64,000 nucleotides of DNA from a bacterium (GTDB lineage Bacteria > Armatimonadota > Fimbriimonadia > Fimbriimonadales > Fimbriimonadaceae), in assembly GCA_027483535.1 (NCBI GenBank), contig JAIXUN010000001.1:165432-229431 (forward strand), written 5' to 3'. The notes below the pieces were generated by a model. That model was not told the origin of the DNA. It saw nothing but the letters and a program-made list of their open reading frames with translations, and searched no databases. Both the position numbers and the translations under genes were made by a program. This document shows, in pieces, positions 162-9,493 of this stretch (positions are counted from its first letter, which is position 1; each line of letters opens with the position of its first letter).

Positions 162-1889
162 TTATCGACCGCCGAGTCCGCTGAGCGTGAGTCCTTCGAT
201 GAAGTACTTCTGGGCGAAGAAGAACAGCGCGAGAACGGGCAGGATGGTGAGCGTTGCGAACGCCATCAGCAGCCCCGGCTCGCCGTACCGATCCCCTTGG
301 AAGAGTTGCAAGGCGTAGCTCAACGGCATGTTCTCTGGCGAGTTCACGTAAATGAGCGGACCCATGAAGTTGTTCCAAGAACCCATGAACGTCCAAATGG
401 CGATTACGGCCAGGGCGGGTTTGATCTGGGGGATCATGATCGACCAGAACGTCCGCACGTAATTGCATCCGTCGATCTTCGCTGCGTCCTCTAATTCCAT
501 GGGGATCTGTTTGAAGAACTGCTGCAGCAAAAAGATGTTGAACGCACTGCCAAAGAATGCGGGCACCCACAACGGGTACAGCGAGTCGATCCAGCCCAGA
601 GTCCGGAAGATCAGAAATTGGGGCAGAAGGGTGACGGCACCTGGCAACATCATGGTCGCAAGAAGGACCCGGAAAAGGTTGTCTCGTCCCGGGAACTGCA
701 TTCTTGAAAACGCATAAGCAACGATTGCCGACGATGACAGAGTGCCGATGACGTTCAAGATCACGAGAATGAGCGTGTTCTTGAGATACACCAATCCGCC
801 GTTCGTTTCGGGCGGCAGAAAGTCGAGCGCTTCTGAGTAGTTCTGAACTCGCAGACCCACGTGGCGAACCGGTTCCACCTCGGCGGGCATAAAGGTGTGC
901 TGTTCGCCTTTCAGGCTCTGGGGCTCCATGATTTGGAGCGTCTTTCGACCGTCGTCTAAGTTTTCAACGACGAACCCTTTCACAGGGGTGCCCTTTAGGT
1001 TGGATGAGAAAATCTGAGCATCGGTCGGAACTTCTTTCAGGTCCGATATCTTCGCTTCGAAGGTTATTCCTCGGATAGCGAGGGGCTTTTGAATGTCGAG
1101 CAACGCCGTATCTCCCTTCTTAGAGATGATGCCAGCGACCACCTTTTTGCCTTCGTAGATCGCCTCGAACTTCGGATTCTTCGGGTCCTTGAACGGGATG
1201 GTGTCTTGGACCTTCGGGATCCAAACAATCCCCTCCTTCGAACTCATGTCTCGGTCTTCTTTGAACGAGGTGATCACCAGGAAGGCGAACGGCAGACCGA
1301 ACACGACACAGCCGACCATGAGCGTGATCTGGCTGACGAGCATCTTTGCAAGTCCGCGTCCCGCGGCGAATCGTGCGGCATAAACCATCGCCGCCGTTGT
1401 TGCGATAAGAGCAAGGATGATTCCAGCAACGACGGGTGCGTGAAGCAGAATGCCGCCTTTAAGTATCTCGATCTTATTGGATTTATCGCTGAAGTAAAGA
1501 ACCGCAAAGACGAACGCCGCAATCAAGAAGGCACCCAACGAGACGCTTTTGGATCTTTGTTCCTCTGCGTTGATCGCGGTGAGGGTCTGAATGAGACGCG
1601 CGATGGCCATTGCCAAACAGGCGAAGCCTAGCCACGCCGTCCAAGGCATCACGAACCAAACAAGCGGAAATCTGAAGGCTCCCGCTTCTGATCGGGTACC
1701 TACGCCTCCAACTACGAGAAGAGCAGCCCCAGCGAGAGATGAGACGAGAACCGTTCGGCCGTTTGAGCGAAGGTCGCGCGATTCGGTTGAAAACACGATC
1801 CGAAACAGAGCCACGATCGCCTGGAAGGCAAAAACCGAACCCGCCCAAACGGCGAGCGTGCCAAGAGCAAAAAACAGACCGGAGTTCAT
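162..1889 (-). CDS. MalG-type sugar ABC transporter permease with N-terminal membrane extension and large extracytoplasmic insertion
   Basis: 575 residues, about twice the usual 270-300 of a MalG/CUT1 permease. The C-terminal 200 residues are classical: the EAA loop is present around residues 470-490 (LEDAAKIDG followed by IPQIKP) and the chain ends with the usual last membrane segment. Upstream of the first canonical helix (about residues 184-205) there are roughly five extra hydrophobic segments between residues 5 and 170. Between canonical helices 1 and 2 there is a beta-rich soluble region of about 150 residues where the family normally has a short periplasmic loop; its end still carries the usual NY-x-EAL element. 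The ATG overlaps the stop of the upstream gene by 4 bases (ATGA), so the two are co-translated. No ATPase gene is nearby, so a shared MsmX-like ATPase elsewhere is likely (inference). Confidence 0.9.
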   Translation of the reverse strand: MNSGLFFALGTLAVWAGSVFAFQAIVALFRIVFSTESRDLRSNGRTVLVSSLAGAALLVVGGVGTRSEAGAFRFPLVWFVMPWTAWLGFACLAMAIARLIQTLTAINAEEQRSKSVSLGAFLIAAFVFAVLYFSDKSNKIEILKGGILLHAPVVAGIILALIATTAAMVYAARFAAGRGLAKMLVSQITLMVGCVVFGLPFAFLVITSFKEDRDMSSKEGIVWIPKVQDTIPFKDPKNPKFEAIYEGKKVVAGIISKKGDTALLDIQKPLAIRGITFEAKISDLKEVPTDAQIFSSNLKGTPVKGFVVENLDDGRKTLQIMEPQSLKGEQHTFMPAEVEPVRHVGLRVQNYSEALDFLPPETNGGLVYLKNTLILVILNVIGTLSSSAIVAYAFSRMQFPGRDNLFRVLLATMMLPGAVTLLPQFLIFRTLGWIDSLYPLWVPAFFGSAFNIFLLQQFFKQIPMELEDAAKIDGCNYVRTFWSIMIPQIKPALAVIAIWTFMGSWNNFMGPLIYVNSPENMPLSYALQLFQGDRYGEPGLLMAFATLTILPVLALFFFAQKYFIEGLTLSGLGGR

Positions 1890-4360
1890 TTGTCGGACTC
1901 GTAATAGACCCAGCGGGAGCGAAGCTGGAATTGGACGGCGGTGATTACCAGAATGATCGTGAAGATTAACCAGGCAAGAGCGGAGGCGTAACCCATCTTG
2001 AAGTAGGCAAAACCGTTGTTGAACAAGTGATAGACAGGCGTGAGCATGGAGTCGTCTGGCCCGATCGGTCCGTCACCGTTCGGCTTCATCACATAGATTC
2101 GATCGAACTCTTGCATGGACCCGATGAAGCCCATGACAGTGTTAAAGAAGATGATCGGACTGAGCTGAGGGAAGGTTATCGACCAGAACTGTCGTCCGGG
2201 CGTGGCTCCGTCGATCCCGGCAGCTTCGTAAAGCGTGGTCGAGACACCCTTTAACCCAGCGAGCCACAGGATCATGCCGCTACCCGCACCCCACACTCCC
2301 ATGACAATGAGCGCGGGCTTTGCCCAGTCGGCCGAGGTCAACCATCCCGGAACCTCTAGCCCCATCCAAGCCGAGATGGATTTGACCCAGTAAGAATTGA
2401 TCAGACCCTTGCCGGGGTCGGGCGTGAGAACCCACGACCATAGGACCGCACTGGCAATGCCCGGCACAATGGCAGGCATGTAAAAAACAGTCCGGTAGAA
2501 CCTCATTCCCCGCGCCGCCATGTTGAGTAGCATCGCCACCGCCAGACCCGTCGAGAGTCCGAGGGGAACGCCGACTCCTGCCAGATAGGCTGCATTAGAG
2601 AGGGCCTTGAGCAAGCGTGTTTTGTCGGACCCGAACATCTCGGCGTAGTTCTTGAACCCAACAAATCGAGCCTCGTTCAGAACGTCGTACTGGGTGAAGC
2701 TAAAGAAGAGCGAGGCGACCATCGGCCCGATGGTAAAGATGAGGAATCCGAGAATCCAGGGGGAAATGAAGAGGTAGGCCCACTTTGCCTCGCCTCGTTC
2801 GAGCCGTCCTAGCTTCGCCCGATAGAAGGAGACGATCATGAGGATCACGACCCCAACTAGGGCTAAGACACCTAGAACAGCCGGGAGCCGGAGATCGATA
2901 ACCGGGTAGCGCTCTTTCTCGAAGTACGCGTCGAGTTCCCGCTGCACATTGGACTGCGCTTCCTTGAGAGCCCCCATCGGCGAGTTCTTGCCATAGCAGG
3001 CGGCCTCCATTGCCCGAACGTGCTCTTGCCACATCACCTGCCCGACAAACGTCACGGGCCGGATTCGACCGTAGTTCGCCATTTCGACGTGCATGTCGAT
3101 CGCGTCGGCAAAGTTCTTGGCGGCAGGTCGAAATTCCTTGGCTTGAAGCTCGTTGAACTCTTTGCTCGCCATTTGGCGGGCCATGAACGCTCGACCCTTG
3201 AGCTTTTCCCATTCGTTTTGAGCCCGGGACTCCACCATGCGTCCTTCCGTGCTCGTCGCAAATTTGATGAATCGCCATGCGGCCTCCGGATACCTTGCGC
3301 CACGGGGAATGGCCAAAGAGGATCCGCCCACCCACGTCACGAAGGTGTCTTTTTCGTTCGTGAATCGCCCTCGTTTGTAAAACCGGTCGTCAGGAACAGG
3401 GGGAGGCGCCACGCCGAAATCGAGCGCGGGCGCGTATCGAGACATCGTATTGAGGATCCAGTCTCCATCGATCTTCATGGCGACTTGACCGACGATGAAG
3501 GCATCGTTCTCGCCTCCTCGGAAGCCGGACTCAAATGACTTGGCTTTCTCGTAACCGCCAACGATCTTGTAGCCATCGACCATGAACTGAAGGGCTTCAG
3601 CCGCTTCCGGCGTTGCCATCGTGCACTTTCGACCATCCTCCGAAAGGAACGAGGCGTTGTTCATGAACCCGTACATGTAGAGCCAGGAGTTGCCGAAGTT
3701 GGGCATGAACCCCGCCTTTACGAGTCGGCCTGACTTGTCGAACTCGGTGAGGACCTTGCTGTAAGCGAGAATTTCCGACCAGGTTCTTGGCGGTCGGTTC
3801 GGGTCAAGTCCTGCCTTCTCTAGTTCGGCGGCTTTTTCCTTAAACCGGGCTCTGTTCCAATAGAGGATCCGGTTGTCGGCTCCGGTCGGGACGGCGTACA
3901 GGTTGCCGTCGTACATCGCCTCCTCCCAGCAAGAATCGTAATACTGTTCTTTCTTGGGTGCCTCTGGATCGTTCTTATCTCGCTCGACGAGATCGTTCAG
4001 CGACCGGAATGCTCCGCGGCTTGCCCAGTCCGAGATGGTGAATCGGTCTTGGTTAATGACGTCCGGGGCGACATTACCCACGATGCTCGTCATGAGCTTT
4101 TGGGGGTCCATCTTGCCCGCGCCCATGCTCAGAACGCGAACACTGAGATCGGGATTCCGTCGTTCGAACTCTCGGATGACCGCATCCTGACCCTTCGAGT
4201 CTGATCCGAGCGAGACTCCCCAGAACACGATTTCGGTTCGAGTGTTCTTCTTTGCGGGCTGCGCCGGTTGCGCACCTGCCAGTCCAGCGCCGAATAATCC
4301 GACCGTAAGGACCGATGCCGCGACGGCGATAGATTTCGAATTGATAAAAAAGCGGCTCAT
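1886..4360 (-). CDS. Fused sugar-binding protein + MalF-type ABC permease
   Basis: 824 residues. Residues 1-30 form a signal sequence ending near AGAQP. About 35-480 resemble family-1 solute-binding proteins (MalE/UgpB type: an N-terminal beta strand, a region predicting ligand contacts, many surface Trp/Tyr). A single hydrophobic helix follows at about 490-512 with Arg/Lys on its far side, and then a complete MalF-type permease (about 525-824) with the EAA motif EAAGIDGATPGRQFW. The topology is self-consistent: the binding domain is outside, the linker helix returns the chain to the cytoplasm, and the permease starts inside. Fusions of binding protein and permease are known in the OpuA/glycine-betaine family but are unusual for CUT1 sugar importers. 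A TATAAA box on the minus strand lies at 4387-4392. It is transcribed with the MalG-type permease downstream. Confidence 0.92.
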   Translation of the reverse strand: MSRFFINSKSIAVAASVLTVGLFGAGLAGAQPAQPAKKNTRTEIVFWGVSLGSDSKGQDAVIREFERRNPDLSVRVLSMGAGKMDPQKLMTSIVGNVAPDVINQDRFTISDWASRGAFRSLNDLVERDKNDPEAPKKEQYYDSCWEEAMYDGNLYAVPTGADNRILYWNRARFKEKAAELEKAGLDPNRPPRTWSEILAYSKVLTEFDKSGRLVKAGFMPNFGNSWLYMYGFMNNASFLSEDGRKCTMATPEAAEALQFMVDGYKIVGGYEKAKSFESGFRGGENDAFIVGQVAMKIDGDWILNTMSRYAPALDFGVAPPPVPDDRFYKRGRFTNEKDTFVTWVGGSSLAIPRGARYPEAAWRFIKFATSTEGRMVESRAQNEWEKLKGRAFMARQMASKEFNELQAKEFRPAAKNFADAIDMHVEMANYGRIRPVTFVGQVMWQEHVRAMEAACYGKNSPMGALKEAQSNVQRELDAYFEKERYPVIDLRLPAVLGVLALVGVVILMIVSFYRAKLGRLERGEAKWAYLFISPWILGFLIFTIGPMVASLFFSFTQYDVLNEARFVGFKNYAEMFGSDKTRLLKALSNAAYLAGVGVPLGLSTGLAVAMLLNMAARGMRFYRTVFYMPAIVPGIASAVLWSWVLTPDPGKGLINSYWVKSISAWMGLEVPGWLTSADWAKPALIVMGVWGAGSGMILWLAGLKGVSTTLYEAAGIDGATPGRQFWSITFPQLSPIIFFNTVMGFIGSMQEFDRIYVMKPNGDGPIGPDDSMLTPVYHLFNNGFAYFKMGYASALAWLIFTIILVITAVQFQLRSRWVYYESDK

Positions 4361-6412: not shown

Positions 6413-7075
6413 ATGCGCAAGAACTCTAGTCTCTTCGCAATCGCGTCTATCGCCATTGCTCTCCCGTCGCTCGCTTCGGCTCAAACCGCCTCCATGTGGC
6501 TCAACCAGGCAGGTGATGCCCCCACCACCGTGACGACTCTGCTCACGGCGACTCCGAACAGCGTCATCAACCTTTCCGGTTACCTCCAATCCAGTTCCGC
6601 TTCGGCAATTTTGGTGACTGCATTGGTCGGCTACACCACCGCGTCTTCGATGGGCACCGGAGCTACTCCGGACGCATCGTTCCTGTCCTTCGGTTCCGCG
6701 GCTTGGGTTGCTCCGTTCACGTCGGGCGCACTTCCGACCGTTCAAGCAGGCGGCACGGGTTCGGGCACTCGACCCTACGGCGCATCGCTCTCGTCTGGTC
6801 TCACCACCGGAACGTTCGGTCTGGCAACGGGCGTGCCCGTGAAGGCGTTCGACATCTCGTTGAACCTCGGTAATGCTCCGGTAGGATCGTTTGCAGAAAT
6901 CGTTCTCTGGGACGGACAAAGCGTCGACTTCTCTTCGAGCGTCACGTACGATAACTTCAACAGCTCGTTCCCCGGATCGCAGCGAATCAGCGTTGCCGTT
7001 GTTCCGGAACCGACCACCATGCTCGGTTTTGCGGCGGTTAGCCTTCTCGCCCTGCGACGACGACGCTCAGCTTAA
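6413..7075 (+). CDS. PEP-CTERM sorting-signal surface protein
   Basis: 220 residues. A signal peptide covers residues 1-23 and ends ASAQT. The mature part is Ser/Thr/Ala/Gly-rich, of the kind usual for beta-rich surface proteins. The C-terminus has the full tripartite PEP-CTERM signal: VPEPTT, a hydrophobic segment, then a basic RRRR cluster at the end. Proteins with this signal are processed by an exosortase (EpsH family) and associated with exopolysaccharide or the outer surface; no exosortase lies in this window. GAGG about eight bases before ATG 6413 supports the start. It has its own promoter and a strong terminator, so it is monocistronic unless there is readthrough. Confidence 0.88.
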   Translation: MRKNSSLFAIASIAIALPSLASAQTASMWLNQAGDAPTTVTTLLTATPNSVINLSGYLQSSSASAILVTALVGYTTASSMGTGATPDASFLSFGSAAWVAPFTSGALPTVQAGGTGSGTRPYGASLSSGLTTGTFGLATGVPVKAFDISLNLGNAPVGSFAEIVLWDGQSVDFSSSVTYDNFNSSFPGSQRISVAVVPEPTTMLGFAAVSLLALRRRRSA

Positions 7076-7092
7076 GTAAAGCTCCTGTTCCA

Positions 7093-7128
7093 AACCCCTC
7101 GGACAAGTCCTTTTCGAGGGGTTTTTTC
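7093..7128 (+). terminator. Rho-independent terminator of the PEP-CTERM gene
   Basis: AACCCCTCG (7093-7101) pairs perfectly with CGAGGGGTT (7115-7123), followed by a T-run. It ends only seven bases before the next start codon at 7136. Confidence 0.85.
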
Positions 7129-7135
7129 TTCCAAC

Positions 7136-9493
7136 ATGAACTCAAATTTACTTCGTTCGGTCGTTCTGACCGGCTTAATCTTCTTTAGCTCCGCGTCCTT
7201 TGCTCAGACGGCTTCTAGCCCTGAAATGACGAAGGAGAACTTCGAATTCAAGACTGGAGTCAAGGTCTCCATGGCGGAATTGATGCTTCGGCAACGTTTG
7301 GACAAATCGCCGCGTCCGAAAATCAAGTTTCACAACGATGAAACGGAGTATCGGAAGAACCTTCCCCAAAATCCTGATTCCCCCGCGATCGCCTCTTCGG
7401 CCGGCAAGCAAGTAGGGCTTGATCTTGGAATCTTCGCCGCGAAGCCTGCCGGACGAATCGAGCCCCTTTTTGCGACGGTTGGCACCAACTTCGAGGGTGG
7501 AAACTCGACTCAAGGTCCGACGGTCACCCCTCCCGACACGATGGGCGAGGTTGGCCCGGCAAACGTTGTAGTGCCGCTCAACAACCAAGTTCGGATCTAC
7601 AACCGTTCCGGCGTCTTGATCAGCGCCGTTAACACGGATGTTTTCTTCTCCCCGGTGGTGACTCCCGGATCTGGAACCAGCGACCCTCGCGTCCGATTCG
7701 ATCGGCTCACAAATCGCTGGTACGTGTGCGCGATCGATGTCGCAGGCCCGCGAAACCGACTCCTGCTTGCGGTTTCGAACAGCGATACCCTTACCAGCAC
7801 GTCAACCTGGACCTTTTCTTTCGCCCTGGCAGCGACCAACCGGTTTGCTGACTACCCCACCTTGGCCGTCGATCAAAACGGTGTGTACATCGGCGTCAAC
7901 TCGTTCAGCAACACCACCGGCGGTTTTTTGGGATCAGACCTTTGGTGCTTCCGAAAAGCGGATGCTATCGCCGGAACCCTGGCGGGAACTACCTTTTTAA
8001 ACCTCACCGACTCATTTACCCCCTTCATCGCGGATAACGACGACCCAGCAGCCACCGACGGCTACTACCTCGCGGTCTCAAATGCAAGTTTCGGTCTGTT
8101 AAAGTTCGGCCGCGTGGCACGTTCTGGAGCCGGATTCGCTTTCACACAGGCGATCAGCAACCTAACCATCGCCACATCCAGCTTCCCGGTCGATCAAGCC
8201 ATTCCGGGAGGATCGCACGACACCATCGACGATCGAATGTTCTCGGCGAAAGTTTTCTATGACCGAGTGACCAATACCCGAACGCTCTGGACGACCCAAA
8301 ACATGGCCGTCGACAGTGCCGGCGTAGCCACGAATACGGGCGCCCGCACCAACGCATCTCGCTGGTATCAAATCACGAACCTCAATACAACCCCTACCGT
8401 TGCTCAATTCGGAACGGTGTTCAACACGTCCTTCGGATTCAGCATTCCGACAGTTGCGATGAACCTGCAGGGTCATGCCCTGATGGGCTTCACCCGAAGT
8501 AATGCAACGACTTCGCCGGGAGTTGCGACGTCTCACCGACTGGCCACCGATGCAAGCGGCACGATGACAGCTCCGACACTTCGTCAGGCCGGAACCGGCA
8601 ACTTCGCGTTGTTCGGAACGCCATCGCGATGGGGTGACTACAGCAATACGGTCGTCGATCCTCGCAACGGCATGTCGATCTGGACATTCCAAGAGTACGT
8701 TCGAGCGAACAACTCGTGGGCGGTTCGAGCCATTGAACTAAGGGCTCCGGCTCCGACGCTTGCATCCGTTGCCCCGGCAACGATCACACAAGGTCAAAGC
8801 ACTTCGTTCACCCTCACCGGAACGGGACTCTTCGATCCGGGCGCAGGGTATCCAGATCGTCTGGCAGTCTCGGTTTCCGGAACGGGCGTCACGGTGTCTA
8901 ACCTGACCTGGGTTAGCCCGACGTCGGTAACGATGACCCTAAGCGCAACGAGCGGTGCCGCTACAGGCTCGCGAACCATCACTCTAACGAATCCAGACGG
9001 TCAGACGGCGACGACGACCTTGACCGTGAATGCTCTAGCATTGGTTGCAGGAACGATCACGTTTGAGGACTTTCCGCCCGCAACAAAGCCGCAGGTAACG
9101 GTTCAGATTCGAAACAACACGACGGGAGCGCTCATTGAGAGCACAAACGTGGTGCCGAGTTCGGCTGGAACTTTCAGCTTCCCAACGAGCGTTCCCGCTG
9201 GGACCTACCGAGTCTGGGTGAAGCCATCCCACCGGTTCCTTGGCAAAATCCTGAATAACGTCGTGTTCACCGGCTCCGGTGTTTCAGGGCTATCGTTCAC
9301 GCTTAAGAACGGCGACGTCAACGGAGACAACTTCGTTTCCGCTTCTGACCAGTTGGCTCTTCGAGCGGCATGGGGTGCAAACTCCTCCTCTTCGAACTGG
9401 AATCCCAACGCCGACCTGAACGGCGACGGTAACGTCGGCAACAGCGACTTCCTTATCATGAGGAAGAACTTCGGCGCCGCGGGCGATAACTAA
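7136..9493 (+). CDS. Large secreted protein with TIG-like and dockerin-like domains
   Basis: 785 residues. A signal peptide spans about 1-23 (ending SFAQT). Residues about 110-530 form a repetitive beta-rich region with Asp/Asn-rich loops, probably a propeller-like or adhesin-like fold, which I do not recognise. About 540-640 look like an IPT/TIG immunoglobulin-like domain (starting SVAPATITQGQS). A further beta domain follows, and the last 60 residues contain two dockerin type I-like calcium loops (GDVNGDNFVSASD and ADLNGDGNVGNSD). In cellulosome bacteria dockerins bind cohesins; lone dockerin-like tails are also common on secreted proteins of Planctomycetes-type bacteria without cohesins. 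The ATG is immediately behind the upstream terminator, leaving no room for a normal promoter or ribosome-binding site. Confidence 0.85.
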   Translation: MNSNLLRSVVLTGLIFFSSASFAQTASSPEMTKENFEFKTGVKVSMAELMLRQRLDKSPRPKIKFHNDETEYRKNLPQNPDSPAIASSAGKQVGLDLGIFAAKPAGRIEPLFATVGTNFEGGNSTQGPTVTPPDTMGEVGPANVVVPLNNQVRIYNRSGVLISAVNTDVFFSPVVTPGSGTSDPRVRFDRLTNRWYVCAIDVAGPRNRLLLAVSNSDTLTSTSTWTFSFALAATNRFADYPTLAVDQNGVYIGVNSFSNTTGGFLGSDLWCFRKADAIAGTLAGTTFLNLTDSFTPFIADNDDPAATDGYYLAVSNASFGLLKFGRVARSGAGFAFTQAISNLTIATSSFPVDQAIPGGSHDTIDDRMFSAKVFYDRVTNTRTLWTTQNMAVDSAGVATNTGARTNASRWYQITNLNTTPTVAQFGTVFNTSFGFSIPTVAMNLQGHALMGFTRSNATTSPGVATSHRLATDASGTMTAPTLRQAGTGNFALFGTPSRWGDYSNTVVDPRNGMSIWTFQEYVRANNSWAVRAIELRAPAPTLASVAPATITQGQSTSFTLTGTGLFDPGAGYPDRLAVSVSGTGVTVSNLTWVSPTSVTMTLSATSGAATGSRTITLTNPDGQTATTTLTVNALALVAGTITFEDFPPATKPQVTVQIRNNTTGALIESTNVVPSSAGTFSFPTSVPAGTYRVWVKPSHRFLGKILNNVVFTGSGVSGLSFTLKNGDVNGDNFVSASDQLALRAAWGANSSSSNWNPNADLNGDGNVGNSDFLIMRKNFGAAGDN

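Follow-up and report, generated by a model that had tools for sequence, protein, structure and literature searches.

A predicted maltose-type sugar importer of Armatimonadota with its binding protein fused to MalF and, in Fimbriimonadaceae, a two-unit insertion in MalG

In the window, by which we mean the whole 64,000-nucleotide stretch of DNA analyzed here (contig JAIXUN010000001.1, positions 165,432 to 229,431, from a member of the Fimbriimonadaceae), two genes on the minus strand share a four-base ATGA overlap. The first encodes a solute-binding protein fused to a MalF-type permease, and the second encodes an enlarged MalG. Their lengths, 824 and 575 residues, were confirmed as given in an earlier note on this DNA. 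The features of the locus are listed below in window coordinates, with the evidence for each in brackets.

1886–4360, minus strand: fused binding protein and MalF-type permease, 824 aa (domain matches, model, orthologues)
4271–4360, minus strand: signal peptide, residues ~1–30 (AGA-QP cleavage-like site by eye; helix 7–29 in the model)
2906–4243, minus strand: solute-binding domain SBP_bac_1, residues ~40–485 (domain match, model)
2819–2890, minus strand: added helix TM0, residues 491–514, running from periplasm to cytoplasm ahead of MalF TM1 (model and sequence)
1901–2806, minus strand: MalF/UgpA-type six-helix permease domain, residues 519–820 (domain matches, model)
2168–2233, minus strand: EAA coupling loop of MalF, LYEAAGIDGATPGRQFWSITFP (sequence; invariant alignment columns)
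162–1889, minus strand: enlarged MalG-type permease, 575 aa (CUT1 permease core at the C-terminus)
1362–1889, minus strand: N-terminal extension of MalG, residues 1–176, with five extra helices (model)
1260–1352, minus strand: standard TM1 of MalG, residues 180–210 (model)
1029–1172, minus strand: insertion unit 1 of MalG, residues ~240–287 (profile comparison, model)
858–1025, minus strand: insertion unit 2 of MalG, residues ~289–344 (profile comparison, model)
165–794, minus strand: permease core of MalG, TM2–TM6, residues 366–575 (domain and structure matches)
417–497, minus strand: EAA coupling loop of MalG, ELEDAAKIDGCNYVRTFWSIMIPQIKP (sequence; invariant alignment columns)

Residues 60–374 of the fused protein matched SBP_bac_1 (family 1 solute-binding protein, 118.6 bits), residues 599–815 matched BPD_transp_1, and the alignment to UgpA covered residues 528–820. 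The AlphaFold2 model contained a confidently predicted binding domain (pLDDT 88–98 in most blocks), a helix at residues 491–514 and, after it, the permease helices. Domain matches and model thereby confirmed the proposal that the binding domain is joined by a single helix to a MalF permease. CUT1 permeases begin on the cytoplasmic side of the membrane, so that a periplasmic receptor placed in front of MalF needs one helix more, and one is present. The MalF domain carries no MalF-P2-like domain. The nearest solved structure to the solute-binding domain was that of the mannobiose-binding protein CpMnBP1 (4r9f), and further oligosaccharide receptors followed among the closest ones.

In MalG, about five additional helices had been noticed from the sequence; the model bore this out and placed all of them before the standard TM1. 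It also showed beta strands at residues 72–80 and 141–149 of this N-terminal extension, and both beta-strand loops are predicted to be periplasmic. The loop between TM1 and TM2 (the periplasmic loop P1) comprises 137 residues. MalG proteins of this genome that lack the insertion have 18 at this place, indicating that ~119 residues were inserted. The beta-rich insertion described in the earlier note therefore stands as a beta-rich TM1–TM2 loop (pLDDT 86–91, both units covered), and the size of ~150 residues assigned to it is roughly that of the whole loop. The insertion consists of two homologous beta units of ~55 aa each: an hhalign profile comparison between the two gave 95% probability, an E-value of 3.8e-8 and a score of 34.4, whereas scores did not exceed 14.4 in 60 column shuffles and reached 7.8 with a reversed profile. 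The single unit found in other Armatimonadota (see below) gave a 98% match to unit 2 and a 96% match to unit 1. Comparison of the units with the PDB by sequence yielded no match better than E 0.44, and sequence profiles nothing reliable. Foldseek detected a weak resemblance to SH3/Agenet-like barrels (E 4e-3 to 6e-3), its sole lead for this part of MalG being the tandem Agenet structure 6ie4 (E 4.1e-3), which superposed poorly overall (125 columns, rmsd 14.5), and the Pfam Agenet model gave a weak match in 1 of 13 (E 0.064). We regard an SH3/Tudor-like barrel fold of the units as a lead, not a result.

When the fused protein was searched against 291 genomes of Armatimonadota, the full-length fusion was found at 44–70% identity in at least 19 family-level groups. 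The fused proteins formed one clade in trees of both the permease (MalF) part (support 98/99) and the receptor part (95/92). Their sister clade is made up of ordinary systems with free receptors, and the genome of the window has one of these as well (C4:~243000). The tethered importer is thus a genuine variant of a familiar type of transporter, conserved across Armatimonadota. The TM1–TM2 loops of the accompanying MalG proteins, sized by alignment-based classification (in which locus L068 was misread owing to a frame-overextended ORF), fell into steps of 18, ~83 and ~138 residues, corresponding to none, one and two units. Two units were present in all Fimbriimonadaceae loci read and one in most other families read, and no unit was present in two further families (loci L206 and L208) although MalF is fused there. 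Among the matches from a search of plasmids, the two single-piece ones that were inspected proved to be neighboring separate genes and no fusion. One record titled ‘Methanoregulaceae archaeon SJ84’ (L105) carries a Fimbriimonadaceae operon, and its title or binning looks wrong.

The system has the features of the CUT1 family (TC 3.A.1.1): two BPD_transp_1 permeases with EAA loops akin to UgpA/UgpE and MalF/MalG, a family 1 solute-binding protein and an ATPase, the last encoded in the genome but outside the operon. As in MalEFGK2/UgpBAEC (2r6g, 3rlf) and AlgM1/M2 (4tqu), there is an SBP_bac_1 receptor, a MalF/MalG pair with EAA loops and an ATPase of the UgpC/MalK type. Unlike in MalEFGK2/UgpBAEC, the receptor is fused to MalF by an extra helix, the MalF-P2 domain is missing, MalG is extended by five helices at its N-terminus and by two beta units in its P1 loop, and the ATPase gene lies elsewhere. 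Covalent linkage of a receptor to the permease through a short linker is shared with OpuA, in which a hydrophobic anchor adjoins the linker (PMC11065425), and with GlnPQ. However, OpuA has two receptors per complex, whereas one would be expected on the MalF/MalG heterodimer, and OpuA and GlnPQ belong to the glycine-betaine and amino-acid families. Since the best matches of the fused importer are to CUT1, it works like these systems but is not a member of them. An insertion between TM1 and TM2 is likewise found in MalG1 and MalG2 of the Thermotogales; there it is hydrophilic, measures ~500 aa and has no similarity to known proteins, and malE is a separate gene (PMC2246101), which indicates that this loop of MalG can enlarge without a tether. 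Tethered receptors and a large MalG TM1–TM2 insertion are therefore each known from earlier work. No report of a receptor–MalF fusion was found in the open literature, a scope outside which most subscription journals lie.

The importer had been described as self-contained, which proved wrong: the operon contains no ATPase gene, and the only match above the cut-off in a TOBE_2 search of the genome was a UgpC/MalK-type ATPase at ~2.38 Mb on C1, a contig other than that of the operon. This protein contains OB_MalK and TOBE_2 domains and scored 437.4 bits with the NCBIfam UgpC model (cut-off 432). Considering that one MalK-type ATPase stands against about ten SBP_bac_1 proteins in the genome, the ATPase is probably shared, and presumably serves the fused importer as well as the other sugar importers. 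MsmX of Bacillus subtilis, a single ATPase that drives several CUT1 importers (PMC5730181), is a precedent for sharing, for which the evidence here is the gene counts. At locus L144, from a relative, the end of malG is directly overlapped by a gene of the UgpC type, and this argues in favor of assigning an ATPase of the UgpC/MalK type. Elsewhere, the cluster around malG consisted of antisense or overlapping frames and unrelated ABC-2-type ATPases, with MalK at L144 only, and no conserved catabolic neighbor hinting at the substrate was found around malG in the loci of relatives. The predicted substrate is probably an oligosaccharide.

As a whole, we consider it reasonably probable that the two genes encode a CUT1 importer for oligosaccharides that has a captive receptor and a shared ATPase, and in which the MalG-P1 insertion acts as a docking platform. 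The periplasmic binding domain would be followed by a short linker and by TM0, which would lead to the cytoplasmic start of MalF, and the tether would keep one receptor at each channel. MalF and MalG would pair as usual and be driven by the single UgpC/MalK-type ATPase. The MalG-P1 insertion would give the receptor, whether tethered or free, an additional platform for docking in place of the large MalF-P2 loop of E. coli, and the five extra helices of MalG may brace the insertion side. MalE of E. coli reportedly contacts MalG-P1 as well as MalF-P2 (secondary citation of Daus et al. 2007, listed as ref. 89 of PMC3150292). Given a MalF devoid of P2 and an enlarged MalG-P1, a docking role is the simplest inference, and the insertion probably docks the receptor. 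The captive receptor may gain a higher effective concentration at the channel. The earlier suggestion that tethering could raise local affinity is unlikely to hold for affinity to the ligand, because the ligand affinity of GlnPQ is unchanged by neighboring tandem domains; a longer linker lowers the rate of transport in that system (PMC8025302).

More tentatively, and with clear reservations, this arrangement might be a phylum-wide, vertically inherited design in which a small beta module, gained by MalG-P1 and later duplicated in one family, docks the receptor instead of MalF-P2 alongside the MalF tether, and which is portable, as locus L067 (below) would illustrate. If so, the two sides of the channel would both hold the receptor and the module would be a portable docking element. 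More generally, the importer described here would extend covalently tethered receptors to the maltose-type family. It would also offer a natural series, from no unit to two and with the receptor either tethered or not, in part inside a single genome, for separating the effects of tethering and accessory docking on import. In addition, it provides a conserved marker for the poorly studied phylum Armatimonadota.

The insertion and the extra helices might instead have nothing to do with the receptor, and bind peptidoglycan, an outer-layer polymer or another membrane protein, or stabilize or regulate the complex. The weak resemblance of the units to SH3/Agenet-like barrels is in keeping with such a role. 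So are the mirror-tree partial correlations over 54 pairs, in which the insertion tracked the N-terminal extension (r = 0.28) slightly better than the binding domain (0.18), the value for MalF being 0.21. However, the location of the insertion is precisely loop P1, the contact site reported, in the secondary citation given above, for the E. coli binding protein, and we regard a function unrelated to the receptor as unlikely.

Docking of the receptor in general, as we propose, is to be distinguished from an insertion that coevolved with the tethered binding domain as its dedicated partner and exists because of the tether. In favor of the latter, fusion and insertion occurred together in most of the adjacent gene pairs read. 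Loci fetched with a MalG query, a set that is biased because it was selected for the insertion region, included 66 fused ones, of which 55 had two units and 11 had one, and those fetched with the fused protein included 12 fused with one unit and two with none. The co-occurrence expected in the earlier note therefore holds for most loci, but it is not obligatory in either direction. A fused MalF is accompanied by an insertion-free MalG in L206, L208 and the second fusion of the genome studied here (L039); in L206 and L208 the receptor is tethered without the insertion, which is thus dispensable there. Conversely, L067 combines a free receptor with a MalG that contains both units and whose core groups with free-receptor MalG (100/99), and in L130 a free receptor and a free-type MalF are followed by a MalG that has two units and belongs to the fused-type clade. 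No fused orthologue was found in the genome of L130. Tether and insertion are therefore separable. Equal occurrence of the insertion in species with free binding proteins had been named as an observation that would speak against a link; such loci exist, yet they are rare, a free-type MalG with the insertion (as in L067) being present in one of 85 family genomes among the matches listed. The receptor/MalF pairs of L067 and L130 fall into the sister clade of the fused proteins, which is what a general docking function of the insertion would predict. The module of the L067 MalG (L067:4998-6218), a protein whose core groups with an insertion-free MalG, has possibly been transferred by recombination.

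The anticipated coevolution of the insertion specifically with the binding domain was not borne out, since its correlation with that domain was weak and no higher than with MalF or the N-terminus. Most of the co-occurrence is accounted for by common descent alone. The proposal of a dedicated coupling between insertion and tether is thus supported in part, a causal link being hypothetical, and we judge a partnership owed to the tether to be rather improbable.

The importer with a captive receptor also presupposes that the receptor stays attached. Were the fusion a precursor, cut by a protease between the binding domain and TM0, the receptor would be freed. In keeping with cleavage, the TM0/linker region is far more divergent than the remainder of the chain, with a mean distance of 1.59 versus 0.59 and 0.50. 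However, the added helix and the reading frame are kept phylum-wide, and the linker and anchor sequences of OpuA are also poorly conserved while its receptor is nonetheless attached (PMC11065425), which makes a cleaved precursor very improbable. That two genes were merely joined by a sequencing error or frameshift is practically negligible as an explanation, because the frames of all fused orthologues but one, among the matches listed from the 291-genome search, are open over their full length. A hidden frameshift at the junction (~2890), for which the earlier note had asked, was looked for and excluded, the full-length fused frame being free of internal stops in almost all of the orthologues listed. 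In the one exception (genome G217, L207:3713-6202), an in-frame TAG interrupts the receptor domain rather than the junction, which reflects either a sequencing error or a pseudogene.

The genome contains two other binding protein–MalF fusions. The second, of 817 aa (C1:348231-350684), is divergent and is followed by an ordinary MalG (L039:1732-5105, corresponding to C1:348231-351604); a protein resembling alpha-L-rhamnosidases according to Pfam is encoded nearby. The third, of 847 aa, is located on contig C4 (L040:1156-3699) and no MalG ORF was found alongside it. An orphan MalG of 527 aa with an unrelated TM1–TM2 insertion is encoded elsewhere on C4 (L041:2372-3955), and the two may pair together. 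The three fusions of this genome were separate in the tree, and AU tests did not reject a single clade (p 0.08–0.35). Positions 6413–9493 of the window hold two neighboring genes for secreted proteins: one product has a tail that by eye resembles PEP-CTERM, and the other, of 785 aa, carries a type I dockerin domain at its end according to Pfam.
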